Part shown: in pieces, positions 45,552 through 60,025 of the stretch
Layout of the letters: each line of letters starts with the position of its first letter
Numbering within the stretch: position 1 is the first letter of the stretch
Source: an uncultured Methanolobus sp.
GTDB taxonomy: Archaea > Halobacteriota > Methanosarcinia > Methanosarcinales > Methanosarcinaceae
Assembly: GCF_963665675.1 (NCBI RefSeq)
Contig: NZ_OY762426.1
Location: 496,001-560,000, forward strand
DNA: 64,000 nt
Direction of reading: 5' to 3'
The notes under the pieces: generated by a model
The model's input: the letters and a program-made list of their open reading frames with translations, nothing else
The model's database searches: none
What the model was told of the DNA's origin: nothing
Program-made: the position numbers and the translations under genes

Positions 45552-46064
45552 TTATTCCTCAGCATTCGGTGGCGTGAACACTCTTGCTGCAAGTTCCTTA
45601 TCAATCATGAAGAGACCATTTCCATCACTACCTATAAGCTTGAGCTTTGCAATCATTTCATTGTCATTGGCTTCTTCCTCTATCTGTTCTGTTACAAACC
45701 ACTGGAGGAATATCTGTGTAGCATAATCCTTCTCTTCGTTTGCGAGGGTTACCAGATCATGAATTGATTTTGTGATGAACTGTTCATGCTTAAGTGTGGC
45801 CTCAAACATCTCTAACGGAGTTCCGAAATTACCAGGAGGCTTTTCAATCGCTTCAAGAACGACTTTTCCGCCCTGATCGTTCACGTAATCATATATCTTC
45901 ATTGCATGGGCCATTTCTTCCTCATACTGTACCATGAACCAGTTGGCAAAGCCATCAAGTCCTTCATATGTGCAGTGAGCTGACATATCCATGTAAAGAT
46001 ATGCGGAGTACATTTCCTTGTTGATCTGCCCGTTAAGGGCTGCTGTCATTTTTTCGCTTAACAT
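45552..46064 (-). CDS. Ferritin (non-heme, FtnA-like)
   Basis: A 170-residue ferritin. The dinuclear ferroxidase residues appear as QINKEMYSAYLYMDMSAHC (Glu in helix A), WFMVQYEEEMAHAMKIYDY (Glu and His in helix B) and FLQWFVTEQIEEEANDNEMI (helix C/D). It stores iron as ferric mineral in a 24-mer and would work with the neighbouring superoxide reductase to limit Fenton chemistry. Complete; ATG at 46064 shortly after the DsrE-like gene on the same strand. Confidence 0.93.
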   Translation of the reverse strand: MLSEKMTAALNGQINKEMYSAYLYMDMSAHCTYEGLDGFANWFMVQYEEEMAHAMKIYDYVNDQGGKVVLEAIEKPPGNFGTPLEMFEATLKHEQFITKSIHDLVTLANEEKDYATQIFLQWFVTEQIEEEANDNEMIAKLKLIGSDGNGLFMIDKELAARVFTPPNAEE

Positions 46065-46122
46065 TTACAGTCTCCGTTCTTCATGTTGTTTCATAATAAG
46101 TTTTGATTCTAACATAGAATGC

Positions 46123-46473
46123 TCAGACTACTACGATCTCGTAGCCGTCATCCATGTAGCGAGCCATACCCGGATGTCCGTACATTTCATCACACAAAGG
46201 AAGTTCCTGATTTTTTGCACTTTCAAGGCTTTCCATTTTAGATGCGCATGCTCTGCATACACAGTCTATGAGCCCTGCATCCTTTACTTTAAGATAAAGA
46301 GCTGTGAATGGTTTTTTCTCACCCTCGGCTTCTTTTACAAGACGGGTTGCAGAACCTTCAATGATGAGCTTTACATCATAGCCTTTGTCTTTCATATCAA
46401 GTGCATTCATCAGAGCATGGATGAAACACATCTCCTCTCCGTTAAAAGCAAAAATAGCTACTTTTCTGGCCAT
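46123..46473 (-). CDS. DsrE/DsrF-like family protein
   Basis: A 116-residue DsrE-fold protein beginning MARKVAIFAFNGEEMCFIHALMNALDM, with GYDVKLIIEGSATRLV in the middle and the cysteines CVCRACASKM near residue 70, a conserved small cluster typical of cytoplasmic sulfur-relay DsrE/peroxiredoxin-adjacent proteins. A role in thiol or sulfane-sulfur transfer is likely. First gene of a probable three-gene stress operon with ferritin and superoxide reductase. Confidence 0.8.
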   Translation of the reverse strand: MARKVAIFAFNGEEMCFIHALMNALDMKDKGYDVKLIIEGSATRLVKEAEGEKKPFTALYLKVKDAGLIDCVCRACASKMESLESAKNQELPLCDEMYGHPGMARYMDDGYEIVVV

Positions 46474-46638
46474 TCTTTCACCTTACCTGAACCTTACTTC
46501 CCCGCATAGAATTGATGAGATTTCTATAAAGTGTTTTCGGTCTCCTGCTATTTTTATTGAGAATACGGAGGTAGTGTGGTTGCGGCTTATTCCGAATTAT
46601 TATGCTTTGTTAATTGGACATAGTTTTCCCATTATTTC

Positions 46639-46770
46639 GACTCTGTAGAATTCCTGTTTGTCTGAGTGACACAAACATTGCTTTTTTTGTGTCTACAAAA
46701 ACTATCCACAATCTAAAAACAAAGTAACCATCCGCCGATGTATTAAAGTATTAAGCGAACCATACAGAAT
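46639..46770 (+). mobile_element. MITE-like element, copy F (degenerate)
   Basis: Begins GACTCTGTAGAATTCCTG, a near match to the terminal repeat, continues with GAGTGACACAAAC and CTAAAAACAAAG, then CCGCCGA where the hairpin is broken. A family-like ATACAGAATA at the expected distance beyond suggests the copy extends to about 46770. The right half is missing. Confidence 0.7.
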
Positions 46771-46951
46771 ACAGGTTTTCATCTGTTAATTGGTTCCAAA
46801 ATCACTTGTAATGAGTTGGAACAATGAATACAAAAAAGTAACTATTCAGCCTATCTCATTTCCACCAGGCTGCTTTCTCTATTTACGCTCAATTCTGCAA
46901 TAAATAAACATATTCATTTAGCCGAACCTTCAACGAATCAACAATAATAGT

Positions 46952-47143
46952 TTAAATCTCCAGAACCTTGCCATGAACTCTGAACCACTCCTTGCGTTGC
47001 TCATAGTCAGACATAATGGTCTTTATGGAATCCCAATATTTTCTTCCATGATTCTTATGCTTTAAATGCGATGTTGGTAGTTTCATTAATATCTGATGAC
47101 TCCTTTTGCAGTTCACTTCGTCTTGCCTTCTCTGGTACGAAGA
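46952..47143 (-). pseudogene. Possible C-terminal gene remnant
   Basis: A 63-codon open frame on the reverse strand whose amino-acid composition is protein-like, ending HGKVLEI before TAA. There is no initiation codon with a ribosome binding site near the left end; the only ATG lies mid-frame. I interpret it as a leftover of a mobile or phage-type gene, with low certainty. Confidence 0.3.
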
Positions 47144-47469
47144 TTACACTTTCATTAAATTTACATGACAATGATCTAGGAACAACATATCGAATATGTA
47201 TTGATTGTATTCAGAACTGTCAATTGAACTTCGTAGGATATCAATAGCTTTGAATTAATATGTATTGAATTCGTTGATGTGGGTACCATAAATCACACTT
47301 TGGAAATGAACACGATAAAGAGTGAATAATAGAACTTTACTAATCATAATACTTATCCTGATTAGGGTCACCGTATGGTTCATTAACAATTATCGCCCTT
47401 ATTAAAAATGGAAGTGGTTCTATCGAAGATACTGAGGAAACTCAGATAAAAGAATCAGTTAATGAACTT

Positions 47470-48255
47470 TTGGAAGAATACTATCGCCAATCAGTGGAAG
47501 ATTGTCGTATCATTGGAAATCAAAAGTATACAGTATCTATATCAATAGCAGTTGCCAGTGGGGCACTTTTGTATGCAATAGCAACTGCCATTTCCACAAA
47601 CAGTCATACCTTTTATAATGATTTGTTTATCGCTTCAATAGGTATTTTTGCACTACTTATGATTTTGGATAATTTATACAATACACTTTTTTTATTTTTT
47701 CATCTACCTCTCATGACTGATGCTACTGTAAAGATAGAGATGTTACAAAGAGATATATTATTTAAAGAAATGGGTATTGTTGACGTTTTTTATTGGGATA
47801 AAATACCTCACGATAGGAATAATAATTTTAAGGAATTTTTGCAAAAAAAATATATCCTTACAAATATTAGTAAAGTTCATTGTCTCAGAGAGAACGCTGA
47901 TACATATTCAATCATAATTAAAATAGGATGGTTGAAGAAAAAATATGGTTCTTTCTCATTGGACTGCGATAAAAAAATAGCAATTCTAAATATTGATGGA
48001 ATTGAAGTAGATAGATTTAAAGTTAGAGAAGAAGAAGCTAATTTAGTTTTATGGGAAACTGAATTGAAAAATAGATTCAGAGATATTGGTCCCCATTCAG
48101 TCGTTTATAGACCTTCAATACTAAGAGTTAAGCTTGCTATTATAGTAACATGCATAATTGTTGGAGCAATAGTGATTATAACCTCTTTCTATAAAGTGCA
48201 TGAGGACATTATTATTGCATGTGTACATAATTTATGGTACAACTTTTGGTCATAA
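47470..48255 (+). CDS. Hypothetical membrane protein with three transmembrane segments
   Basis: About 261 residues from a TTG at 47470. Two N-terminal hydrophobic helices (YTVSISIAVASGALLYAIAT; LFIASIGIFALLMILDNLY), a large polar cytoplasmic domain, and one C-terminal helix (LAIIVTCIIVGAIVIIT). No recognisable domain. The frame remains open back to 47362 without any ATG, so the true start is uncertain or the gene has lost its 5' end. It lies beside the putative defence operon on the opposite strand and may be an accessory or effector; unsupported. Confidence 0.6.
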   Translation: MEEYYRQSVEDCRIIGNQKYTVSISIAVASGALLYAIATAISTNSHTFYNDLFIASIGIFALLMILDNLYNTLFLFFHLPLMTDATVKIEMLQRDILFKEMGIVDVFYWDKIPHDRNNNFKEFLQKKYILTNISKVHCLRENADTYSIIIKIGWLKKKYGSFSLDCDKKIAILNIDGIEVDRFKVREEEANLVLWETELKNRFRDIGPHSVVYRPSILRVKLAIIVTCIIVGAIVIITSFYKVHEDIIIACVHNLWYNFWS

Positions 48256-48299
48256 TTGTTACGCCAAGAGCAATATACTACTAAAAAGGAACGTATAAT

Positions 48300-48530
48300 T
48301 CAGTAATTTTTTGGGCTTATTTCACCATTCAATATAAGCAACCCCACCAGAGTCCTTGCCACTTTTACAGTATCCTGTTGATTTTTCACACGTGTGCATT
48401 CCCTTTGATTCCTAGGAAAAGTACTTACTGTGAAAGTGTTACCACAAACAGGGCATTTAAATGTCGCATTGTTTCCAAACCAGTCTTCATCCGTTCCTAA
48501 GTTGTTGGGGTCTACATATATTGCATTCAT
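48300..48530 (-). CDS. Small zinc-finger protein
   Basis: A 76-residue protein with CPVCGNTFTVSTFPRNQREC, so a CxxC plus one more cysteine that may complete a zinc site together with nearby residues. The C-terminal half is helical. It lies 111 bases downstream of the methyltransferase on the same strand and may be the last gene of the operon. Function unknown. Confidence 0.6.
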   Translation of the reverse strand: MNAIYVDPNNLGTDEDWFGNNATFKCPVCGNTFTVSTFPRNQRECTRVKNQQDTVKVARTLVGLLILNGEISPKNY

Positions 48531-48641
48531 GATACTTTCTCCTATTTAAGTAATCATGAAATCTATGTCGTTGAGATACCACGGCTGACATAGCCCTATC
48601 TTTAATTGTCATAATCATTAGAGACATTATTCTGATGACTT

Positions 48642-49565
48642 TCATTTTCCTAAAGTACAAACTAAATCGTCAGCTAAAAGTGTTGGCTCCAACTCCCTAT
48701 TGCTTATAAGTTGAAGAGGATCAACCATGTTTTTTTCATCTAAATCGCAATTAGTTATTAGCAGCTCGCTGCCTCTCCTTGCTTTTTTTCTTTTTACATT
48801 TGTCATCCCATATGCTAAATCCCAAGGGATTACATCAGCAAAACTAAATAACTCTCTTATTTCGGGAGAATCATCACACGTTATAAGCCAACGGTGTTTA
48901 CACTTTTCGACATCCTCCGCAAATTTATCATGGTCAAAATTAGTATGTAGATGACCGTTGATTCCGTACAACTTCGAATTTTTTGACGTTAAATAGGGAG
49001 GGTCTAAGAAAAGAAATACATCTTTACCCGGTTTGCTTAATAGATGACCATAATCATTGTTTGTTATCTCTATGCCTTTTAATAAATTGGATAATGGGAC
49101 TAGTTTATCAACCACTGAAGTAGTAAATCTTTTATCGTAAGACTCTTGAGAATAACCTCCTGAATCAATGAGTCCCGAGAATGTTATTCTATTCAGAATA
49201 AAAAATCGGATTGCTCTCTCAAAATTACTCCATTCGTGTTCCGTATTTTTGTAATATTTAAAAAGGTCTTTACCCGATTTAAATTGACTTTTCATTGAGA
49301 TTACTGTCTCTTTGAATATTTCTCCATCTTCTTGTAAATATTCCCAGAAATAATACAAATCGGGGTTAATATCATTTATCGAAAAAGTGGCAAGGGTTGG
49401 AATTTTTTGCTTAGCAGCGATGAAAACAGAGCCACCGCCTACAAAAGGTTCTCTAAATTCTTTAAAGTTTGATGGTATGTACTCCAAAATGGTCTTCAAA
49501 GCTCTGGATTTTCCCCCTGGATATCTCAAAACAGAGGTAACAGTAGGGCTGCTCATATTCTTCAT
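48642..49565 (-). CDS. Dam-type (D12 class) DNA adenine-N6 methyltransferase
   Basis: A 307-residue methyltransferase that would methylate adenine in a specific DNA site. The AdoMet motif I region is RYPGGKSRALKTILEYIP and FREPFVGGGSVFIAA; the catalytic motif IV is FLDPPYLTSKN (DPPY) near residue 200; motif WLITCDDSPEIRELF follows. This is the size and motif order of the D12 class. The four-base ATGA overlap with the upstream gene couples it to the SMC-HerA-NurA operon, where it could mark self DNA. Confidence 0.9.
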   Translation of the reverse strand: MKNMSSPTVTSVLRYPGGKSRALKTILEYIPSNFKEFREPFVGGGSVFIAAKQKIPTLATFSINDINPDLYYFWEYLQEDGEIFKETVISMKSQFKSGKDLFKYYKNTEHEWSNFERAIRFFILNRITFSGLIDSGGYSQESYDKRFTTSVVDKLVPLSNLLKGIEITNNDYGHLLSKPGKDVFLFLDPPYLTSKNSKLYGINGHLHTNFDHDKFAEDVEKCKHRWLITCDDSPEIRELFSFADVIPWDLAYGMTNVKRKKARRGSELLITNCDLDEKNMVDPLQLISNRELEPTLLADDLVCTLGK

Positions 49566-50488
49566 TTCTTTTTTTTAATGTTATCTAGTTTTTCCCAATT
49601 CGCACTATTCTCCGCAATTTTGAATAGGGAATTGCTTATTGCATTTTGATAAGAGATGTCTGCAAATACAAAAGATTGCAACTCTTCGGAATTATATACA
49701 TAATTTTTGTGATTATACAATACGTTGTTACAAAAGGCGTTTATTTTATTTTGTTCTTCAAAAGATAGATTTCCACCAAATACTTTCCATAAAAGGTAAC
49801 TGAGCTTGTCTTCTGAAAGTGTTTCCTTCTCTTCATCGTAAATGTCTAACCAACTTTGACTTTCTTTGTTAAATTTGTATATTCCTCTTGTCAATTCCGG
49901 AAGCTTTTGCAACCTAGCAAAAATAGAATTAACTGGACTTTCTCTAGTCTCTTTAGGCATATCGTATTTAAAATCATCTATTGAGCTATTTAAGAAATTT
50001 ATTGTCTCCAACACAACTTGATGAATATTTTGAATGGATTTTTCTCCATTTTTTCTATTAAGAGGAGTCTTTTCATAGAAAGCACGGAGTGCGACGAGGG
50101 AAAGAATTACTACCTTTTCTTTATTTGGTAGGTCTCCTCCCCACTTAATATCATATTTATATTCATCAATGTCATCCATTAGTATTTCAAAACTAATTTT
50201 CCCTAAAAGGCTTTCTATTTCCCATACACCTTTTGCAGTCATAACATATTTGGAAAAATCATTTCCAGAGCGAATAAAGCCTTTTTCAACAAGCTCATGG
50301 GCAACTTGTGGGTCTAAATTCTCAGAGAAAACCGCAGAGTCATCTAGGTATTGAAGAATATTATTTTTATTTCCTCGCAGAAAAGTTAAATAAATCGATG
50401 ATTTTTGCATTTTAGATGCATTTGATACATTTTTCCATAATTGATTGTAAAAATCTTCCTTTAAAACTAACAGATATTCTTCTGACAT
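49562..50488 (-). CDS. Unrecognised protein with winged-helix-like segment, in SMC-HerA-NurA operon
   Basis: A 308-residue soluble protein starting MSEEYLLVLKEDFYNQLWKN. An N-terminal segment HELVEKGFIRSGNDFSKYV followed by MTAKGVWEIE looks like a winged helix-turn-helix; the rest is helical and charged with no known motif. An in-frame ATG at 50515 would overlap the ATPase gene by 17 bases; I prefer 50488, with GGTG just upstream and a 10-base gap. It is sandwiched between the SMC-like ATPase and the methyltransferase, so it is probably part of the complex. Confidence 0.8.
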   Translation of the reverse strand: MSEEYLLVLKEDFYNQLWKNVSNASKMQKSSIYLTFLRGNKNNILQYLDDSAVFSENLDPQVAHELVEKGFIRSGNDFSKYVMTAKGVWEIESLLGKISFEILMDDIDEYKYDIKWGGDLPNKEKVVILSLVALRAFYEKTPLNRKNGEKSIQNIHQVVLETINFLNSSIDDFKYDMPKETRESPVNSIFARLQKLPELTRGIYKFNKESQSWLDIYDEEKETLSEDKLSYLLWKVFGGNLSFEEQNKINAFCNNVLYNHKNYVYNSEELQSFVFADISYQNAISNSLFKIAENSANWEKLDNIKKKK

Positions 50489-50498
50489 TATAGCACCA

Positions 50499-52670
50499 TC
50501 AGTAAAGTTTTTCAATAGTTAGTTCTTCATCTACGGCTTTTGCAAAGACAGCAAGCAAAATTTTGTTCTGGTCGATTTGTTTTTCAAGAATATTTTGAAT
50601 CGGTTGTAGAGAATTTGAATCCATAGTTGAACCTTCATCAAAAATAACTATCATCCTTCTTTTATCATCTTCTGGCCTGTTTAGTATTGCTTGAATATAC
50701 ATGCTCATTGACTGCCCAGTACTGATATCTTTCATATCAATTTCTCTGCCACCTTCAAGTAATATCGTTTTCTTTAAAAAATCGATTTTAGTTGGTTTCA
50801 AGAACTCATCAATATATGGAAATTCAGGAATCTTATTTGCAAAATAACTGGAAACCGCTTCATTGTAACGTATTTCATTATCTGATGAGAGTTGTTTTCC
50901 TTCAGCTATTTTATGAATGATATCCTCATATTTGGTAAAATTTTGGTCAAGAACATCTATCAATTTGCTTAAATTATCAATTTGAGCAGAATAGCTATGG
51001 TATTTATGAGGTTCTCGACTTTCTAATTCTCTTAACTTTGCTTCATTCTGAGACTTTATACTTAGGAGATTTTTGTGTTTAATATTATGATCTTCGATAT
51101 CCTTTTGACGCTTTTGAAGTTCAATCAAATAAGAATCTTCAGCTTGTAGATAAATATTACTATATTTTGGATATTGAGATAAAATTTCGTCCTGTTTAAT
51201 ACTTATCTCTGATGGATCTGTATTTTCATCAATAATAATACCATTCGCCTTGGCCAAATTTTTGTAATATTCAATTTTTATAAGTATAGGTTGCAGCTCT
51301 TGATTTATTTCATCAATGTTGTCATCAATGATATTCTCATTGTTTTCACGTATTGATTTTTCTCTCTTACCATAAAGAATCTTTAAACTTTCTAAATCGG
51401 ATTCTATTTTATCGATATCAGATTCAATATTTGATATCAATTCAAGAGATTTCTTTAAATCATCATAAATGGATTTAAGCGTTTTGTTGTTTTCACTTTC
51501 CTTTTTTAGTAAATGTACAAGTTCATTTATGTTTTTATCAAAACCTGGGAGAGAAATATCTACAGAACTATATTGCTCAAATATTTTTATTAAATCATGA
51601 TAAAATGAGCCTTTTTTCCCTGATTCACGAATCTCTTTTTCAGCAAGATAACTGTTTATACTTTTCTTTAGAAAAGTGATGTCTGAATTAATGTTATCTT
51701 CAATATGATATGATTTTAGAGATTTCGCAAAATTTAAACTTTTTATTTTTGAAGTATGTACTTTTATTTGTTCTAAATTACGATTAATAAATAGCCGTTC
51801 TAAAGTTGAAGTTAAACTGTTTATTGATAACTTGACACGTGTAATATCCGATTCAATATCTTCCTTTTTATGTTCGTATTGAGTATTAAATCGTTTTGCA
51901 GTTGTCCGTTTTTTAATTAACTTTTGACCTTCGTCTTCTATTGCTTGCATTAAATTTGTTGAATCAAACATATATCTACCAAATTCTCTCAACGAAAGGT
52001 AACTTCCTAATACCCTATATTCCTCTTCAAGCTCCTTTATTAAATTCGCTGAATCTTCTTCTTGCGTAGTGTATTTAGATAATGTGGACTTTAGCTGTGC
52101 AATTTCGTCATCATTTCTTGATCGTGCGATTTCTGATTTTACTTCACCAAGGTAATTTCTGAAATCTGATATTTTTTTATGGTATCTATTTTGTTGATTC
52201 TTGACATCAGCTAGAATTTCTGTAACACGATTCAAGGGGTCTTCAGGAATATCATATACCAAGAAATATTTATCTTTAAAAGTTTGAAGAGGAATATCAT
52301 TTGTTTCCGAGTCGATCGTTTCCTGAACTCTGATATCTTTAGAAACTGCATTTTTCTTTGACGAGGTTAGTTTTATAGTACCGTCTTTGCTTGTAAGAAC
52401 TACATCAAAGGTATAATCCTGACTGTCACGTTGGGCCATATATTCAATATCGTGTCTCAGTGACTCTGAAATACGACAATCAGTATCTTCAAGTCTGTCT
52501 CCATAAAATGCGAGTGCAAGCATGTTTAGAAATGTACTTTTTCCTCGTGCATTGGGGGCTTTTACGTATATAGCATTACCATTTACATTCTTTAGCTTAT
52601 CATCAATGGTAAATATTCGATTGTGATTATCTCCCTCTTTTCTTGAAATTTCATACTCTACTTCAAGCAT
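50499..52670 (-). CDS. SMC/Rad50-like coiled-coil ATPase
   Basis: A 723-residue ABC-type DNA-associated ATPase. The P-loop is APNARGKSTFLNM near residue 38, lacking the usual first glycine and the GxG pattern. The signature ISTGQSMSMYIQ near residue 655 replaces LSGGQ, and MIVIFDEGSTMDS is Walker B with the catalytic Glu. Between them lie about 550 residues with strong coiled-coil character. No CxxC zinc hook is present. It is not Rad50, since no mre11 accompanies it; a RecN/DndD-like or Wadjet-like role is possible. Confidence 0.85.
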   Translation of the reverse strand: MLEVEYEISRKEGDNHNRIFTIDDKLKNVNGNAIYVKAPNARGKSTFLNMLALAFYGDRLEDTDCRISESLRHDIEYMAQRDSQDYTFDVVLTSKDGTIKLTSSKKNAVSKDIRVQETIDSETNDIPLQTFKDKYFLVYDIPEDPLNRVTEILADVKNQQNRYHKKISDFRNYLGEVKSEIARSRNDDEIAQLKSTLSKYTTQEEDSANLIKELEEEYRVLGSYLSLREFGRYMFDSTNLMQAIEDEGQKLIKKRTTAKRFNTQYEHKKEDIESDITRVKLSINSLTSTLERLFINRNLEQIKVHTSKIKSLNFAKSLKSYHIEDNINSDITFLKKSINSYLAEKEIRESGKKGSFYHDLIKIFEQYSSVDISLPGFDKNINELVHLLKKESENNKTLKSIYDDLKKSLELISNIESDIDKIESDLESLKILYGKREKSIRENNENIIDDNIDEINQELQPILIKIEYYKNLAKANGIIIDENTDPSEISIKQDEILSQYPKYSNIYLQAEDSYLIELQKRQKDIEDHNIKHKNLLSIKSQNEAKLRELESREPHKYHSYSAQIDNLSKLIDVLDQNFTKYEDIIHKIAEGKQLSSDNEIRYNEAVSSYFANKIPEFPYIDEFLKPTKIDFLKKTILLEGGREIDMKDISTGQSMSMYIQAILNRPEDDKRRMIVIFDEGSTMDSNSLQPIQNILEKQIDQNKILLAVFAKAVDEELTIEKLY

Positions 52671-52671
52671 G

Positions 52672-52812
52672 TTATTCTCCTATTGTATCCAATAACTGTT
52701 CAAGTAATTCTTCATTGAAGTAGCCTTCAGATATTAACTTCAAAACGTTGACCTGCTCATCATCCTCTATGAGATTAGATAAAAGAGATAGTATTGAAAG
52801 ACCTGCCTCCAT
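52672..52812 (-). CDS. 46-residue protein in the SMC-HerA-NurA operon
   Basis: ATG at 52812 starts one base after the HerA stop; the Shine-Dalgarno AAGGAGG lies inside the last codons of herA. The product (starting MEAGLSILSLLSNLIEDDEQ, ending LLEQLLDTIGE) is acidic and helical, suited to be a small partner or linker. The SMC-like ATPase begins two bases after its stop. The strong ribosome binding site and tight packing make it a real gene despite its size. Confidence 0.65.
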   Translation of the reverse strand: MEAGLSILSLLSNLIEDDEQVNVLKLISEGYFNEELLEQLLDTIGE

Positions 52813-52813
52813 T

Positions 52814-54418
52814 TTAATCCCTCCTTTTGATAACACCTGCAAAGGCCAATGGGAACTTTAAGACTTTTAATTGAGACATCTCATGGATATTTGCAACTGC
52901 AAACCCTTTTCTTAGATTTTGAATTTCATTATCTGAAATATTAATTCCGTGGCTTTTAGCTACGCCATAATCAGATTTAAAGAAAATTTTAGTGTTGATT
53001 ACATTAGAAAGACCTTTTGGAATGTCGGTAGGATTTTGCGAGGAGAATATAACTCCAATTTCCTGACTTCTCCCTTGACGGCATATTGTATCTAAATCCC
53101 CTAGTGCCTCTTTGGAGCTTTCAGTATTATAAAATTGATGAACCTCATCGATTATTATGAGGATGGGAACGTCACTCTGATTTAAACTTTTTAATAGCAC
53201 AATTTGGTGAAGTAAATGTCGGAGCAAGACGGAACCAAACGTTTTAGACTTTTCATCTTCTAAGTCAATAACTGACATCATTCCGTGCTGGAGTATATCT
53301 TTTCCATTCAGTTTATAAGCTTGAGAATCATCAAAATAGGCTCTTGCAAGATTCAGATTTCTTAATATATTAGATGCTGTTCCCGGAGCAAGTGGTGCAA
53401 TACCAAAGTCTCCTCTTGCAAATCGCATGGGGAATTTATTTTTTTCCTCATCTCTTTGGTTTATGTCTGTAAACCAATTTACAAAATTATTAAATGTAAT
53501 TTCGCTTATTTCATTCTCTTCACGTCTTGCTTCACGCCAATATCTAAAAATATCAGGAAGATACTGCCCTGCAATATCACTGATAGATTGAAGTATACCA
53601 TTCAGAGCTTCAGGTTCAATTGTATGCACGTCTAGAGAAATTGGTTGTAATATAGAAGGTGTTACACCTTTAGTTGGTGATATCTTTGTTGTTGCAGGGT
53701 AATATACTTTGAAATTTTTGATGCTGCGTGCTTTTTCTCCAATTACTTCCCATTCTTTTTCGATATCCTCCGATAAAGCATTTGAAGGCATATCCATTTT
53801 TAAAAAATCAACATCCTTTACATTAATTGCAAGGACTGCTCCTCCATTATCCACAAAATGTTGAGCAAGATATTTTGTAGCTACAGTCTTTCCACTACCT
53901 GTTTTTCCACATATAAGAGTTTGATAGAAGAATAAATCACTCGGGAGACAAGTATATAATAGATTATTATTATTATCTGGTAATATTTGGGTTTTATTTC
54001 CATGTACTGTTGCAAGAAACACAGCAGGCCCGGTCTTATTTTCACCGGATTCTTCGTTATTCATTGCTATGTTGATTTCTTGTTGATTTGAGCGTCTTGC
54101 TTCTGAAAGAATATCTACAACATTAACTCCACCATCTGTTCTTTCATTAAGGTCCTTTATAACACGTGCAGAAATTATGTTTTGCCATTTTAAATCAGCT
54201 TTAACTTTTCCTAAGTCCATGTCAACTGTCAGTGGTGAAGGGGTATATGGATACTCTTGGTGACTTTGCTCAACTTGCAATACATAAAGAGGTTTGTCTT
54301 CATTTTCTTTGTCCATTACTGTTAAATACGAACCTTTTGGAAGCAGGTATGCGGTTCCCCTTTTTGATACTAGTTTGTACCTATTGTCTTTATCAGGACC
54401 TATCACAATCCATGTCAT
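52814..54418 (-). CDS. HerA-like DNA translocase ATPase
   Basis: A 534-residue HerA/FtsK-superfamily ATPase. An N-terminal beta-barrel HAS-like domain (MTWIVIGPDKDNRYKL...) precedes the Walker A motif LICGKTGSGKTVATKYL (near residue 170). ILIIIDEVHQFYN is Walker B, and VIFSSQNPTDIPKGLSN is the conserved sensor region. HerA works as a hexamer feeding DNA to NurA nucleases in archaeal end processing. Here it is next to NurA, an SMC-like ATPase and a methyltransferase, which points to a specialised system rather than core repair. Confidence 0.88.
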   Translation of the reverse strand: MTWIVIGPDKDNRYKLVSKRGTAYLLPKGSYLTVMDKENEDKPLYVLQVEQSHQEYPYTPSPLTVDMDLGKVKADLKWQNIISARVIKDLNERTDGGVNVVDILSEARRSNQQEINIAMNNEESGENKTGPAVFLATVHGNKTQILPDNNNNLLYTCLPSDLFFYQTLICGKTGSGKTVATKYLAQHFVDNGGAVLAINVKDVDFLKMDMPSNALSEDIEKEWEVIGEKARSIKNFKVYYPATTKISPTKGVTPSILQPISLDVHTIEPEALNGILQSISDIAGQYLPDIFRYWREARREENEISEITFNNFVNWFTDINQRDEEKNKFPMRFARGDFGIAPLAPGTASNILRNLNLARAYFDDSQAYKLNGKDILQHGMMSVIDLEDEKSKTFGSVLLRHLLHQIVLLKSLNQSDVPILIIIDEVHQFYNTESSKEALGDLDTICRQGRSQEIGVIFSSQNPTDIPKGLSNVINTKIFFKSDYGVAKSHGINISDNEIQNLRKGFAVANIHEMSQLKVLKFPLAFAGVIKRRD

Positions 54419-54422
54419 ATTG

Positions 54423-55493
54423 TCACCTAAACCCTCTAGCTTGATTCATTGTTGGCTGAAGCAATGAATCCATCATAATGTCATTTAGATTATACATTTT
54501 CTTACTTTCCCGTGCAAATTTCTCAGCAATTGCGATGGGTCTAATCTGGGTATTTTTTGTGTCACCCTGAATTAAATAAAGATAATATATTGTTTCCATT
54601 AGTTGAAATATCAGTTCCTTATACATCACATATGTATCAGGATGCATTTCGATTCTTTGAGGAGAGGCACCAAAGGGTTTCATGTAACAGAAAACTTTAG
54701 AGTTAGCACGAACTGTTTGGTCGGTATATCTAAAAAAATTGGTTCGTTGACCACTTTTTAAAAGGTTGTGTGCCCAATGCATATCCGAGTTATATTTTCC
54801 GTATAGTTGAGAAGTATTGTCAGTAACAAGGTTGCTTGAACTATTTTTAACAACAAATATTGGAATAACAGATTTCTCTAATAATCTTGAGTTTAATTCA
54901 TTGTTAAATCGTGTCATCTGTTTTCCAACAAGTGGCCCGTCAATAAAAATAATGCAGTTGTTAGGAATATTTGATAAAATGAACTTATTTCTATCAAGTG
55001 CATAGTCTTCTTTAAATACAGCTTCGATTTTATCTTTTTCTCCCAATGAGTCTGCATCTGTTTTTCCACTAAGGTTAGCGTCACTTAATGACTTGTTTTT
55101 TTCAAGAAGGAGTTTTGAGCGGGTGTAAAACCTAAATGACAAACAAGTTGAAGCCAAGTAATCATCATCGTCCATCAAAATAAGTGAATGGCATGTAAGG
55201 TATCCAGTACCTTCCAGTACTTGGAACAAATCGAATGATTCATCATAGGCCAAGAAGACATGTTTGTCCAGTAACTTCCTTCCATTGGAAGCACACAAAT
55301 CATTACTTCCAAATTCTTCTTCAAGATTTAGTTTCCCAAATGTAGAAAGATAGTCATCTTTAACAACATTTTGTGATATTGGAATTATTGGTAATTCTAT
55401 ATCCTTCTGTATTGATAGTATTTTTTCTTTAAATTGTGGATGAAGATAAAAATTATTCGAAAAGCGGATTCTTTCCACTAGTTTTGCCTCCAA
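54423..55493 (-). CDS. NurA-like nuclease
   Basis: A 356-residue protein with NurA nuclease features: VFLAYDESFDLF near residue 84, CIIFIDGPLVG near residue 185, and a C-terminal RPIAIAEKFARES near residue 330, the segments that carry the catalytic acidic residues and basic groups. NurA degrades DNA with Mn2+ and is driven by HerA. It starts the operon; its stop and the herA start are 4 bases apart. AT-rich upstream promoter region. Confidence 0.75.
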   Translation of the reverse strand: MEAKLVERIRFSNNFYLHPQFKEKILSIQKDIELPIIPISQNVVKDDYLSTFGKLNLEEEFGSNDLCASNGRKLLDKHVFLAYDESFDLFQVLEGTGYLTCHSLILMDDDDYLASTCLSFRFYTRSKLLLEKNKSLSDANLSGKTDADSLGEKDKIEAVFKEDYALDRNKFILSNIPNNCIIFIDGPLVGKQMTRFNNELNSRLLEKSVIPIFVVKNSSSNLVTDNTSQLYGKYNSDMHWAHNLLKSGQRTNFFRYTDQTVRANSKVFCYMKPFGASPQRIEMHPDTYVMYKELIFQLMETIYYLYLIQGDTKNTQIRPIAIAEKFARESKKMYNLNDIMMDSLLQPTMNQARGFR

Positions 55494-56501
55494 AATCTAA
55501 TATGCAAAGTAGGGAGGAGAAAAAGAGGGCTTTTTTTGTAGAACAACTCTTTTGCAAAAACTATCATTAAAAGCTAAATGATTCTTCAGGTATAAATAAA
55601 ATGTTATTTGATTTCAAAATAAAATATAATATCCAAAATTGCATCTATAAAGACGTGAATTTTACTTATAGGCACTACATGAGTGTTCATCCTTGAAATC
55701 CCGTCTGTGATCAACATAACTTAGGTGTTTCCTTATGATGCTACCTTTGATAATTTCAACCCTTAAAATCCAACATTGAACATAATATTTTATTTACAAT
55801 TGGTGTCGTTGCTGCTGTTTTTGTAGTAAGTGTAGTTCATTACAATCATTGCATGCAGCTACAACACTGCATACAGGTGATGTAAGTGACTACATTGCTT
55901 ACACTGTAGTCAATGTAGTCATCATCTACACAGACATGAACACAGCTTATTGATTGTGATTATTTTTAAAAATCAAGCACAACAGCATTGATGAACTTTT
56001 CAATATTGATATATTGGATGGCATCATATCCTTAGATCATGTCAAATGGACTATTCACAATGGATGATGTGAATGATGCTCATGCGTCATCGGTTAAGAG
56101 AAGAATCGTGATAAATAGCATGCAGTTTCATAACTTCATCAAAAACATACCAGTGATAAAACCAGTAGTATGAGATTACTTAACAGTTAAATTCTGTAAG
56201 TTAAGGTAGTTGTTATTGTCCAAAAACATTAGCAATAAGTAAATAAAACTCCTTAACCGAAGACACATGGAATGATGCTATATTGGAAGAGTACTCTGAT
56301 TTTTTTGCATCACTCAGGACAGGTTATAGTATTGAAGATCGATATTTCCACATTGGGGAAGAACATTTGTTGTCTGAATCAGAACTTGCATGGTTAAATC
56401 AGAAATTAGTGAAACGTCATTGCTTACCGATTATGTAGACCTGATCACGGCTAAATAATAATTAATAGGGAACTTATGATGGTTAATATATTGTATTATA
56501 C
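55494..56501. other. Gene-poor AT-rich region with a gene remnant
   Basis: Just over 1 kb. The plus-strand frame 56253-56438 is open for 61 codons and reads like a protein end (DAILEEYSDFFASLRTGYS then IEDRYFHIGEEHLLSESEL), but starts at a stop codon and has no usable ATG. Another patch near 55845-55925 has repeated TGTAGT-like words. The segment upstream of NurA probably carries the operon promoter. No intact gene seen. Confidence 0.4.
56253..56438 (+). pseudogene. Possible gene remnant
   Basis: A 61-codon coding-like frame ending LAWLNQKLVKRHCLPIM and stopping at TAG 56436-56438. The amino-acid pattern looks like a C-terminal helical domain of a real protein. No initiation signal is present; a stop codon lies immediately upstream. 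Interpreted as a decayed gene; family not recognised. Confidence 0.35.
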
Positions 56502-57029
56502 TTATCTTCCAAGCTTCCCTTCTATTGAATCTAATGTTCTTTTTATTTCATTAAGCACTTCCACAATAGTAGAGGCTCTATGATCATCATTTCTTGTTTT
56601 ATCAATATCTTCAATCATAAAAACATCTTTATTTTCATGTGTAATATTTGCAATATCTTCGAAACAGACTTCCATAGTAAGTTGTTTGTACTCCTTAGCT
56701 ATTTTATATGAGTCTGCACACTTGAAAGGTGCATGCAATGAGAAACTTTCAGTAGGATATAATATTGTATAAATAATATCTACTTCATCTCCATCGGGCT
56801 CTATTTTCAGAGTACCTCTGATATTCTTTGCAGGACCTACCCCCAGATTGCGTATTTCCACATCAAATCCATCACCTAAATGTAAATGTGTGGGATTCAC
56901 TTTCAGCGATGGAAGGAACTGATATAAACGAGCAGTTTCCATTTCTTTGACCATCCCTCTGGTTTGCCATGCATAATAAGCAGTGATAATCACCAATATT
57001 GCCGTGAGAACTGATATGGAATCGGTCAT
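56502..57029 (-). CDS. Hypothetical single-span membrane protein
   Basis: A 175-residue protein with one N-terminal hydrophobic helix (SVLTAILVIITAYYAWQT), then a soluble domain with FDVEIRNLGVGPAKNIRGTL, a beta-sandwich-like stretch seen in many small membrane-anchored proteins of unknown function, and a charged C-terminal helix. No catalytic motifs. It is 21 bases downstream of the next small gene on the same strand. Confidence 0.6.
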   Translation of the reverse strand: MTDSISVLTAILVIITAYYAWQTRGMVKEMETARLYQFLPSLKVNPTHLHLGDGFDVEIRNLGVGPAKNIRGTLKIEPDGDEVDIIYTILYPTESFSLHAPFKCADSYKIAKEYKQLTMEVCFEDIANITHENKDVFMIEDIDKTRNDDHRASTIVEVLNEIKRTLDSIEGKLGR

Positions 57030-57050
57030 ATTATCTCCTTTTTGATGGAT

Positions 57051-57467
57051 TCAAAAATCACAGATTAATTCTCCGATAACTTCACCATTTTTCCTTATCG
57101 GATTGCAATTAACCATCCTTGTGGTCTTTGCAGCACTTGGACTACTTCGTGAAGGGTACATGTGTTGTTTATACCATTCCACAGGTACTTTATAGAGAGT
57201 ATATTTGTGAACACCATCTTCCTGTTTCTCTTTGTTTTCGAGTACTGCAATGATGCTTTGGATGTTTTCAAGAACATTTAGCGTTACACCTACGGATGAG
57301 GTATTCTTGTGTGCTGACTTCAAAACGACTATTTGTCCATTGAATTTAGTTTCATTACTTTTAGTTTTGGTGTTAAGTAATTCTGATCCGAGGTGTCGAA
57401 AAGCTAATTCGGCCATACGACGTCCGAAAACAACTCCTTCTCTGCCAGTATTTTTATTTTGTCCCAT
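57051..57467 (-). CDS. Hypothetical protein, soluble
   Basis: A 138-residue protein starting MGQNKNTGREGVVFGRRMAE, with a basic amphipathic start, GQIVVLKSAHKN and a C-terminal RKNGEVIGELICDF. GAGGGTG lies 6 bases upstream of this ATG; an ATG at 57482 overlaps the upstream small gene by four bases and is the alternative. No domain recognised. Part of a compact three-gene minus-strand group. Confidence 0.6.
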   Translation of the reverse strand: MGQNKNTGREGVVFGRRMAELAFRHLGSELLNTKTKSNETKFNGQIVVLKSAHKNTSSVGVTLNVLENIQSIIAVLENKEKQEDGVHKYTLYKVPVEWYKQHMYPSRSSPSAAKTTRMVNCNPIRKNGEVIGELICDF

Positions 57468-57478
57468 ATATCGCACCC

Positions 57479-57610
57479 TCATAAGTATTGTTCTAAATTT
57501 CCTGAAAACTCTTCAAAACCTATTGGATGGTATTCCACTTCACCAAATAACCTCTTATATCTGTCATGGACAGCCTTGCTAGCATTGTTTTTTTCTACCT
57601 TTTCATACAT
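57479..57610 (-). CDS. 43-residue hypothetical protein
   Basis: Starts at ATG 57610 with MYEKVEKNNASKAVHDRYKR and ends IGFEEFSGNLEQYL. Its stop overlaps the alternative start of the next gene by four bases (ATGA), supporting translation of both. The upstream frame is coding-like back to about 57657, so the true protein may be longer or truncated. Function unknown. Confidence 0.4.
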   Translation of the reverse strand: MYEKVEKNNASKAVHDRYKRLFGEVEYHPIGFEEFSGNLEQYL

Positions 57611-57840
57611 ATTTCTATCATTGATATCTTTTCCATAATGTTCGTTCTTTTGTAACTATTCAGCCTACCCATTTCTGCCTATTGATAGTGATTCTATTAA
57701 ATCCGAGATGTTTAGTCCTAAATTTATTCAAAACAAAAAAAGCAATCATTCACCGCAGTTAATATAAATTCGTCGCAGAAAACATACGTATAAATTATTT
57801 TACACAGCGGCTATAGATAGTTTAAAACTTCACTTTCTTC

Positions 57841-57951
57841 TTAATAGTACCTACGCTTGAAACCGTCTTCTATTTTCTTGCCTGTACTCTTTTTTATTTT
57901 GAAGGCATCTCCTATTTTTTCAGCTTGACTTTTGTCTTTCTTCTTTGCCAT
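57841..57951 (-). CDS. 36-residue basic hypothetical protein
   Basis: ATG at 57951 opens a short lysine-rich protein (MAKKKDKSQAEKIGDAFKIK, ending KIEDGFKRRYY). GGAG is about 7 bases upstream. Very basic and small, perhaps nucleic-acid-binding; weak evidence only. Confidence 0.35.
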   Translation of the reverse strand: MAKKKDKSQAEKIGDAFKIKKSTGKKIEDGFKRRYY

Positions 57952-58292
57952 GTCAATAACTCCATTTAAATAACGACATTTTCGTCCATTCCATTTATGT
58001 TTTTTCTACATGATTCCTAGCATAATTATAAAGAAAACATACTTCCTTTATACTATATAGTTCTCAAACGACAATGCAACAGAAGGTACATTTTGTTGCG
58101 TTTTTCAGTTCATATCAATTTTAGACATAATTTGAAATCTGCATACTTGAAATGTGTTTAATTTCAAATTAAAGCAAGAAGAAAACGTTTTAGATGAATA
58201 TGTTGCATTTACTGCAAATATCCTAATATCAGGTGTTTCAATCAGGGATATACATTGTATACCACAGAAAATTCAATACAGGTCATCCTGAC
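57952..58292. other. Intergenic AT-rich region
   Basis: AT-rich, no open frame of note on either strand and no repeat that I can recognise. It may carry promoters for the small minus-strand genes. Confidence 0.35.
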
Positions 58293-58436
58293 CTATACTA
58301 TAGGTTCAAGTGCCAAATATCCCTGAACTTTGATAATGTTGAATTTTTGTCCTTTCTTAAATCCCTCTAACTCCATAATGTTCTTTGGCAATGTGAGTCT
58401 GTATTGTCCATTGTATTCCTGCAAAGTAACGTGCAT
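58293..58436 (-). CDS. AbrB/SpoVT-like small DNA-binding protein
   Basis: A 47-residue protein with the signature of a swapped-hairpin AbrB domain: YNGQYRLTLPKNIMELEGF then KKGQKFNIIKVQG. Such proteins are transcription regulators or antitoxins. GAGGG lies about 7 bases upstream of the ATG. No toxin gene is obvious next to it, so it could be an orphan or regulate island genes. Confidence 0.6.
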   Translation of the reverse strand: MHVTLQEYNGQYRLTLPKNIMELEGFKKGQKFNIIKVQGYLALEPIV

Positions 58437-58571
58437 ATTTTAACCCTCTAATTTAAAGTACTACAATTAGTACTAAATTAAGTGATATTTATACATTTTT
58501 GAGGGTCAGAAACATAATTATATAAAAGTAGACTATATGTAATAAGGTATGGTTGGACCAAAAGGTTAATA

Positions 58572-58778
58572 CACCCGCCGAAGGCGGCACATTCCTATGC
58601 TGTTGAACAGAAGATAGTTCCAAACACTTTGCAGTTATACTGAGAATTCTATAGAATGCCTGCGAAAAAAGTGTTTCAAGGTACTATGAAAATTACTTTG
58701 TTTTGTCTTGCGGGAAAACGTCGGCTTCGCCGTACCCTTGGGATGGATCAAGTTATTCATGACCTACGATAGATCGTA
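58572..58778 (+). mobile_element. MITE-like element, copy G (right part, no termini)
   Basis: Starts at hairpin CCGCCGAAGGCGG (58575-58587) and runs through CACATTCCTATGCTGTTG, TTTTGTCTTGCGGGAAAACG and the second hairpin (mutated CGGCTTCGCCG) to GACCTACGATAGATCG. Both terminal inverted repeats are missing. It marks the right edge of the AT-rich island. Confidence 0.75.
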
Positions 58779-58841
58779 TTGTTCTGACAAAACCTGTCTA
58801 CTTTCCTTTAAGTTCTAACAGCAGGATACAGAGCTATTATT

Positions 58842-58991
58842 TCAGTGATTTTTCAGGAAAAGATTACTCTTACAACAGATAATATCTTCCTCCGCCATAA
58901 TTAGTCCCGGTGAGCTTACATTTTCGTTAAAATCAATCCCATCAAAGATAGGAGGATTGGCCAATTTTAATGGAAGGTCTGTTTGGTACAT
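58842..58991 (-). CDS. Short hypothetical ORF, possibly a remnant
   Basis: ATG at 58991 gives 49 residues (MYQTDLPLKLANPPIFDGID, then FNENVSSPGLIMAEEDIIC and a short basic end). It reads as protein but there is no ribosome binding site, and the frame extends a little upstream without a start. Probably the tail of a broken gene. Confidence 0.3.
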   Translation of the reverse strand: MYQTDLPLKLANPPIFDGIDFNENVSSPGLIMAEEDIICCKSNLFLKNH

Positions 58992-59223
58992 CAATTGGCC
59001 AATATCAACAGGTCAAACACAGCAGTTATGCGTGAACCACTAACTTGCTATACAGAATATATTTCGGAGAACTTTCTAGTTATTGTTGTGATAGTGTTCG
59101 ACCTGTTATGTTCTAATAGTAATTCTTTGTATATCAATATTACGAATGGTGCAAAAAATAACAACTAATAACTATTTATCTGATTGCGGTGTTATTGCGA
59201 TGTGTAGAATAAAAGGTGAAAAT

Positions 59224-59844
59224 ATGGAATTAAAACCATTCAAAAGAGAATCAGTAATGCCTCTTCCGGTTGCTTTCATATCCACAAAAAGCAAAGATGG
59301 GATCAGGAACATTGCTCCGTATGGCTGTGTAATGCCGGTGCTCAGGCCACTTGACCTTATATGTGTTGCAACAGCAAAAAAAAGAGATACGCTTGACAAT
59401 ATCAGGGAAACAGGAGAATTTGTTATCAACCTTGCCAGCGCAGACTTTGCAGATAAGGTCATCCCAACTGCAAAATTCATTCCTGCAGACCAGGATGAAT
59501 TTGAATTTGCAGGTCTTGAGGAAAAAAGTTCGAAGAATATCAGTGCTCCCGGAATAGAGGGATGTTACGCCTGGATGGAATGTGAACTTTTTAAGTTATA
59601 TGAAGAATCCAGCTACATACTGATCATGGGTAAAGTTGTCCATCTGGAAGTTGCGGATGAAGTATATGGTGAAGACGGATTATGCAATGTAGGCAAAGCC
59701 CGGCCTTTAATGATGATGGGAGCCGACAATGGTATGCATTTCTGTACCGTTGAAGAAATAGGGAAGTTTGAACCTTTTGGTGCAATGTTCCCTAAAGGAA
59801 ATGATCCGCTTGCCAAAATGTATAAGGAAAATCATTCTGCTTAA
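59224..59844 (+). CDS. Flavin reductase-like (FMN-binding split barrel) protein
   Basis: A 206-residue flavoprotein of the flavin-reductase-like family. The split-barrel features are [55 protein letters not shown] and [13 protein letters not shown]. Homologues in methanogens bind FMN and may reduce metals or act as redox partners. ATG at 59224 with AAGGTGA upstream; an in-frame ATG at 59146 has no site and adds an unrelated N-terminus. Confidence 0.85.
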
Positions 59845-60025
59845 AGTGCTTTGTATGCACTTTTAATGCAAATCCATTTCTTTTTTATTTCTAATCACAT
59901 TTCATATCGTTCGATATCACTGCTGCGATATTGATTCGTATATCATATGATGAATAAATCCTGAAATCCAATTATAGTAGTCATTATAAAAACCAAGTCA
60001 AAATAAATAATACAAAAAGGATTAT

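Follow-up and report, generated by a model that had tools for sequence, protein, structure and literature searches.

What does a compact block of six genes, combining a HerA-type DNA motor and a NurA-type nuclease with an SMC-like ATPase and an adenine methyltransferase (MTase), do for the archaeon that carries it? The block lies on the minus strand at positions 48642-55493 of a stretch of 64,000 nucleotides from an uncultured Methanolobus sp. (contig NZ_OY762426.1, positions 496,001 to 560,000), the whole of which we call the window. We predict that this cassette is an unnamed restriction-modification (RM)-like defence system, with a probability of about 0.5. The Dam-family MTase would mark host DNA. 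Foreign DNA that is unmarked or has free ends would likely be sensed by the SMC-like ATPase together with a predicted winged-helix protein (called Unk here), and HerA would likely pump this DNA into NurA for destruction. Every link between these parts is one that we infer. The association of the gene set, as seen from its recurrence and its co-occurrence across genomes, exceeds chance.

Gene order and co-occurrence across genomes

The open reading frames (ORFs) and strands of the block were checked, and the six close-packed minus-strand genes described in the initial annotation were borne out, including their families, for which Pfam matches exist in the case of NurA, HerA and the MTase (aa, amino acids):

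54423..55493, minus strand: NurA-type nuclease, 356 aa; PF09376, E 9.7e-06, 25.7 bits (cut-off 21)
52814..54418, minus strand: HerA-type DNA translocase, 534 aa; Pfam HerA_C, E 5.6e-12, and DUF87
52672..52812, minus strand: 46-aa protein; short ORF in the same place in 12 other aligned loci
50499..52670, minus strand: Rad50/SMC-like ATPase, 723 aa; ABC head halves at both ends, coiled coil between
49562..50488, minus strand: Unk, 308 aa, fast-evolving; predicted N-terminal winged helix, about residues 1-117
48642..49565, minus strand: Dam-family (D12 class) adenine methyltransferase, 307 aa, DPPY motif; PF02086, E 6e-35

Junctions within the block range from a 4-bp overlap (Unk-MTase) to a 10-bp gap (SMC-Unk, taking the ATG at 50488 as the start of Unk), with gaps of 4 bp between NurA and HerA and of 1 bp on either side of the 46-aa ORF. 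A zinc-finger ORF (48300-48530), which follows the MTase after 111 bp and had initially been counted in the set, was set aside as a component, as it has no relative at E<=1e-3 in 15 loci or in L051.

When GTDB genomes were scanned with the SMC alignment, 10 loci came up, the archaeal ones in Methanococcoides, a Methanosarcinales archaeon, Methanoperedens, Methanofastidiosum, Methanosuratincola, Hodarchaeota and two nanoarchaeal metagenome-assembled genomes (MAGs), and the bacterial ones in a Desulfaltia MAG and in Neobacillus piezotolerans. Two scans of viral contigs contributed two more loci, one complete and the other partial, and whole-genome searches added further loci, among them L026, with a protein match in Methanosarcina vacuolata; contigs fetched twice were counted as one locus. 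In all 12 complete loci (the window, L004, L005, L007, L010-L013, L026, L027, L030 and L051), NurA, HerA, SMC and Unk occur in a single order on a single strand. The set thus recurs in other genomes, a point on which the initial annotation had made its proposal depend. L030 is divergent: it took a profile to recognise its SMC (E 1.1e-38) and hhalign to recognise its Unk (E 1.4e-10, probability 96.9%). The partial loci (L006/L028 with L029, L008, L009 and L014), mostly limited by contig edges, follow this order over the parts that they cover; L008, whose contig is short, is by eye a near-copy of L007 and may be misbinned. Among plasmid records there was no tblastn match for SMC or HerA, and among phage records none for HerA.

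The co-occurrence of the genes was assessed across the class, with 237 genomes covered. The HerA profile (E<=1e-60) picks out seven of them, and a clear match to SMC (E<=3.8e-20) is found in exactly these seven; at E<=0.001 there were 11 SMC matches, and counting the four weak partial ones that were dropped (G217, G044, G054 and G222; E 2.4e-5 to 5.4e-4) would undo this 7/7 agreement. Scanning 392 genomes of the phylum gave four clear SMC matches, with eight weak ones dropped. The MTase subfamily (E<=1e-50) occurs in six class genomes, namely five of the seven carriers and one of the 230 others (Fisher p 2e-8, in a test that ignores genome relatedness and with profiles made from the cassettes), and it adjoins the cassette in all five MTase-bearing carriers. 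Furthermore, locus-to-locus identities correlate among the core proteins, with r of 0.53-0.90 across the subsets tried.

At the protein level, an alignment of 12 NurA sequences shows the invariant blocks YDES, LEG, DGP and SDxHW. HerA, likewise aligned for 12 sequences, carries a Walker A motif (GKTGSGKT) and a Walker B motif (IIIDEVHQF) and resembles the HerA structure 4d2i (E 1.2e-10). The SMC-like protein and Unk have no Pfam match above the cut-off. The CxxC motif is lacking in the window SMC and in 22 of 24 members, and the structural model of the SMC is nearest to Rad50/SMC heads. While the window SMC itself has no such match, one LmuB model picks up 19 of the 24 relatives (E<=0.01, best 4.3e-12), with further weak matches to two JetC models (3/24 and 1/24), to DndD and PbeC in a few and to mad8 and mad3 in some. 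For Unk, single weak matches among 52 relatives were seen to JetB and to PbeC; no Foldseek match at E<=0.001 was found in PDB or viral models, and nothing beyond the winged helix was matched, the C-terminal part not having been folded on its own, and we therefore claim no new fold. The 46-aa ORF looks real, with a counterpart in 12/12 other aligned loci (seven through phmmer, five by eye from the reading frames), although the alignment of 13 sequences has a common pattern with one invariant column only. At least two of these ORFs start with a non-ATG codon and the start in L009 is not set; in the frames of 14 loci, L030 offered only a doubtful candidate between HerA and SMC.

Methyltransferase linkage and possible self-marking

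The same MTase subfamily is found in nine of the 12 complete loci, on varying sides. In the window, L026, L005 and L010 it lies downstream and reads in the same direction; in L011, L027 and L051 it lies past Unk on the other strand, and in L012 and L030 it is upstream. The DPPY motif is invariant in an alignment of eight sequences, the PADLOC model MTase_II PDLC03247 matches all eight members scanned, and the protein resembles PDB 7m6b (E 1e-121). Relatives were found in two of eight genomes searched, G550 and G551, which are those of L012 and L010. L004, L007 and L013 are without the MTase, and the search of their genomes (G051, G546 and G547) found no relative of it at E<=1e-10; at the same threshold none was found in the genomes of L006 and L008 or in G130. 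Completeness is stated for G051 only (99%), and the contig of L007 stops at NurA. As G051, G546 and G547 all have N6_Mtase-family genes, it is possible that one of these substitutes for the missing MTase. The MTase is tightly linked to the cassette and not obligatory. The initial proposal that methylation marks self while SMC, HerA and NurA degrade unmarked DNA has partial support: the methylase is closely linked, but the three of 12 complete cassettes that lack it count against obligatory self-marking.

These three cassettes favour a defence system without self-marking, in which SMC and Unk would recognise the ends, hairpins or topology of DNA in the manner of Rad50, Lamassu or Wadjet and load HerA-NurA. 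The methylase would then be a dispensable accessory, used for instance against other restriction systems. The Rad50/SMC-like heads and the LmuB matches of the SMC relatives point the same way, as does the biochemistry described in PMC12977600, in which HerA-NurA of Thermococcus kodakarensis cleaves both strands of linear double-stranded DNA in a reaction that requires the HerA ATPase, while NurA is single-strand specific and alone leaves circular double-stranded DNA uncut. Rad50 is described as recognising DNA ends, and LmuB is proposed as a sensor of DNA structure, in PMC10586767; the RM-like reading draws on these published findings as well. However, the near-confinement of the methylase to carriers within the class (5/7 versus 1/230) is difficult to reconcile with a merely incidental accessory, and we regard this alternative as possible at odds well short of even.

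Within the RM-like system that we favour, SMC and Unk would serve as sensor and loader, HerA and NurA as a shredder and the methylase as the self-mark, with methylation gating the attack and the small protein perhaps bridging HerA and SMC. Among HerA, MTase and Unk, conservation is highest in HerA (some pairs excepted) and lowest in Unk, which would fit a protein facing changing targets; because it evolves fastest, Unk may be the specificity subunit that sets what is attacked. Taken further, the cassette might represent an RM class without a sequence-specific endonuclease, in which an SMC machine with a diversifying winged-helix subunit reads methylation and loads HerA-NurA on unmarked DNA, a proposal that we put forward tentatively.

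A distant relative of the cassette MTase (E 1.7e-74) lies at L079:4620-5504 in genome G174, the one MTase-bearing class genome outside the carriers, about 5 kb from an ORF that is terminase-like by eye, which suggests that this stretch is a provirus. A viral copy of this kind could shield its bearer against such a system.

Comparison with repair machinery and named defence systems

A HerA-type translocase adjoining a NurA-type nuclease recalls the archaeal repair pair of T. kodakarensis and Sulfolobus, and PMC12977600 presents HerA-NurA with Mre11-Rad50 as the classical archaeal arrangement. The cassette could on this basis be a DNA repair or recombination module, that is, a variant HerA-NurA-Rad50 end processor with a methylase marking a strand or region. 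Ten locus proteins were scanned with Pfam, PADLOC-DB and NCBIfam, and the mre11 family was not named among their Pfam matches, in agreement with the initial annotation, which had seen no mre11 in the operon. Compared with the Mre11-Rad50-HerA-NurA operon, moreover, NurA is divergent, the SMC has no CxxC hook, and Unk, the small protein and the methylase are extra. Elsewhere in the genome a second NurA match (G000:C2, about 1354121-1357233, equal to L038:6122-9234) is followed by an ORF recognised by eye as HerA-like, with no mre11 or rad50 recognised by eye around it among ORFs of at least 150 aa; the presence of this second NurA implies that the cassette copy is accessory. The SMC is absent in 26/26 same-genus genomes, and the carriers include bacteria and a contig from a viral collection. 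A repair role is thus unlikely.

Among the ten locus proteins, only HerA and the MTase matched PADLOC-DB at E<=1, with none for NurA, SMC or Unk. DUF4297-HerA and Sir2-HerA share with the cassette a HerA motor joined to an effector, and the window HerA matches PADLOC HerA models (best 4e-13); here, however, the effector is NurA-type, neither DUF4297 nor Sir2 was matched, and SMC, Unk and methylase are additional. According to PMC11291478, DUF4297-HerA protects E. coli, with host and phage DNA both degraded. Lamassu (LmuA-LmuC-LmuB) resembles the cassette in its Rad50-like SMC, in a small partner controlling the effector and in the weak LmuB similarity of the SMC relatives, but no Lamassu model, LmuA included, matches the window proteins, and in the cassette HerA-NurA replaces the effector and a methylase is added. 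Wadjet (JetABCD) likewise combines an SMC ATPase, a winged-helix partner and a nuclease, but no Jet model matched the window proteins and the cassette nuclease is NurA-type.

An adenine methylase beside a DNA-destroying module is also what type I and II RM, BREX and DISARM have in common with the cassette. With type II RM it shares an MTase of the type II family, but no restriction endonuclease was named among the ten proteins, and for BREX and DISARM there was no match to PglZ, BrxC or DrmA/B. In Dnd, Ssp, PbeABCD and the HerA-FtsK capture systems, DNA modification goes together with an ABC/SMC-type ATPase or a HerA-FtsK motor; the window proteins match none of the Dnd, Ssp and Pbe models, and the cassette has an adenine methylase instead of phosphorothioation, plus NurA. 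MADS (PADLOC label mads) is a methylation-associated defence. It has the link to methylation in common with the cassette, and its mad8 model matches the window HerA (5.7e-13), but no other mad model matched any window protein, NurA, SMC and Unk included. The B component of PD-Lambda-5, a methylase, is matched by the window MTase (PDLC04018, E 1.2e-36), more weakly than the type II models, and the A component is not matched. PD-Lambda-5 and MADS had come into consideration because each has a model that fits a single component, and both were rejected as the identity of the cassette.

The cassette resembles several of the named systems tested, yet lacks a defining feature of each. This agrees with the initial annotation, which knew of no named system of the same composition, and together with the recurrence of the set it means that the proposal withstands the conditions that the annotation had named for its rejection. 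Among the literature matches listed, in a search with most subscription journals and bioRxiv outside its coverage, no title or abstract opening describes the gene set. The cassette is best called a new variant among the defence systems that join a motor, a nuclease and DNA modification.

Genomic setting and significance

As to the defence islands that the initial annotation proposed to look for, some copies have defence or phage genes beside them, and clear defence or mobile neighbours were seen at five of the 12 loci (L012, L013, L026, L027 with L039, and L051). L013 has a type I RM set (HsdM/S/R) 1 kb downstream, and PADLOC candidates adjoin L012 (PDC-M02A/B) and L026 (PDC-S02). An archaeal phage integrase lies near the L027 cassette, and beyond it, about 3.6 kb past the NurA end, an LmuB-like SMC ATPase (L039:4375-6786, PADLOC E 5.3e-30). 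In L051, all six genes lie in a block of lower GC content (about 5-16 kb, 0.36-0.52 versus 0.62-0.69), next to which genes for terminase and head morphogenesis are found on one side. Elsewhere, an ORF6N gene is found about 1.9 kb downstream of L007, and a BglII-like restriction endonuclease (L006:3521-4054, Pfam E 5.8e-9) about 450 bp past the Methanoperedens Unk. An ORF upstream in L005 (1108-1815) by eye resembles what we take to be an MvaI/BcnI-type restriction enzyme. PADLOC gave no defence match for L006:3521-4054, L013:5390-6202, L039:901-1563 and L014:2770-3969.

The integrase of L027 and the phage genes of L051 could also speak for a module of mobile-element maintenance or transfer, in which SMC and HerA would serve the element itself by segregating or pumping its DNA, and PMC10853773 describes HerA/FtsK proteins that pump DNA in mobile elements. 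However, the flanks vary between loci, a nuclease and a methylase better fit restriction, and no recurring relaxase or replication gene was recognised by eye in the gene lists, at which no profile search was aimed. We consider this very unlikely.

Besides the MTase-free cassettes, several points weigh against the RM-like reading. The neighbour scan covered chosen ORFs, on contigs that are in part short, without a random-locus control, and on the left side of L051 none of six scanned proteins matches a PHROG. Several host genomes are MAGs. The NurA family profile found no NurA among solved structures at E<=1, and against the genome's other NurA it aligned over 26 columns without support. With L030 included, MTase distances track those of the other genes less closely (r 0.36-0.57). 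Several correlations are weak once L026 and L030 are left out, and of 2000 permutations 125 reach the SMC-MTase value, 75 NurA-MTase, 67 Unk-MTase and 66 NurA-HerA. Finally, shared ancestry alone can produce such correlations.

In the window, the AT-rich flanks noted at the outset were confirmed, with a GC content of 0.29-0.36 across 46001-60000 versus 0.37-0.45 in the rest (2-kb steps). Two ORFs without a Pfam family (47470-48255 and 56502-57482) flank the cassette inside this stretch. An insertion at an empty site was considered, but the ferritin and flavin-reductase genes of the flanks are not adjacent in relatives having both, and no proof was obtained. An HTH_23/Terminase_5-type gene stands next to the cassette in both L004 (13104-13781) and L027 (12901-13563). 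The Methanoperedens copy (G130) has the look of a decayed cassette: its SMC gene is divided between two contigs (L029 and L028), a weakly transposase-like ORF lies at one of the breaks (L029:7299-8444), and a broken N6_N4-type methylase fragment (PF01555) is found upstream of NurA.

If our reading is true, the cassette joins SMC-based immunity, HerA-nuclease defence and DNA methylation, which have so far been seen apart. HerA-NurA, whose role in end resection has recently been questioned according to PMC12977600, would gain a clear defence version, and the linked methylase makes the idea of self-marking directly testable.

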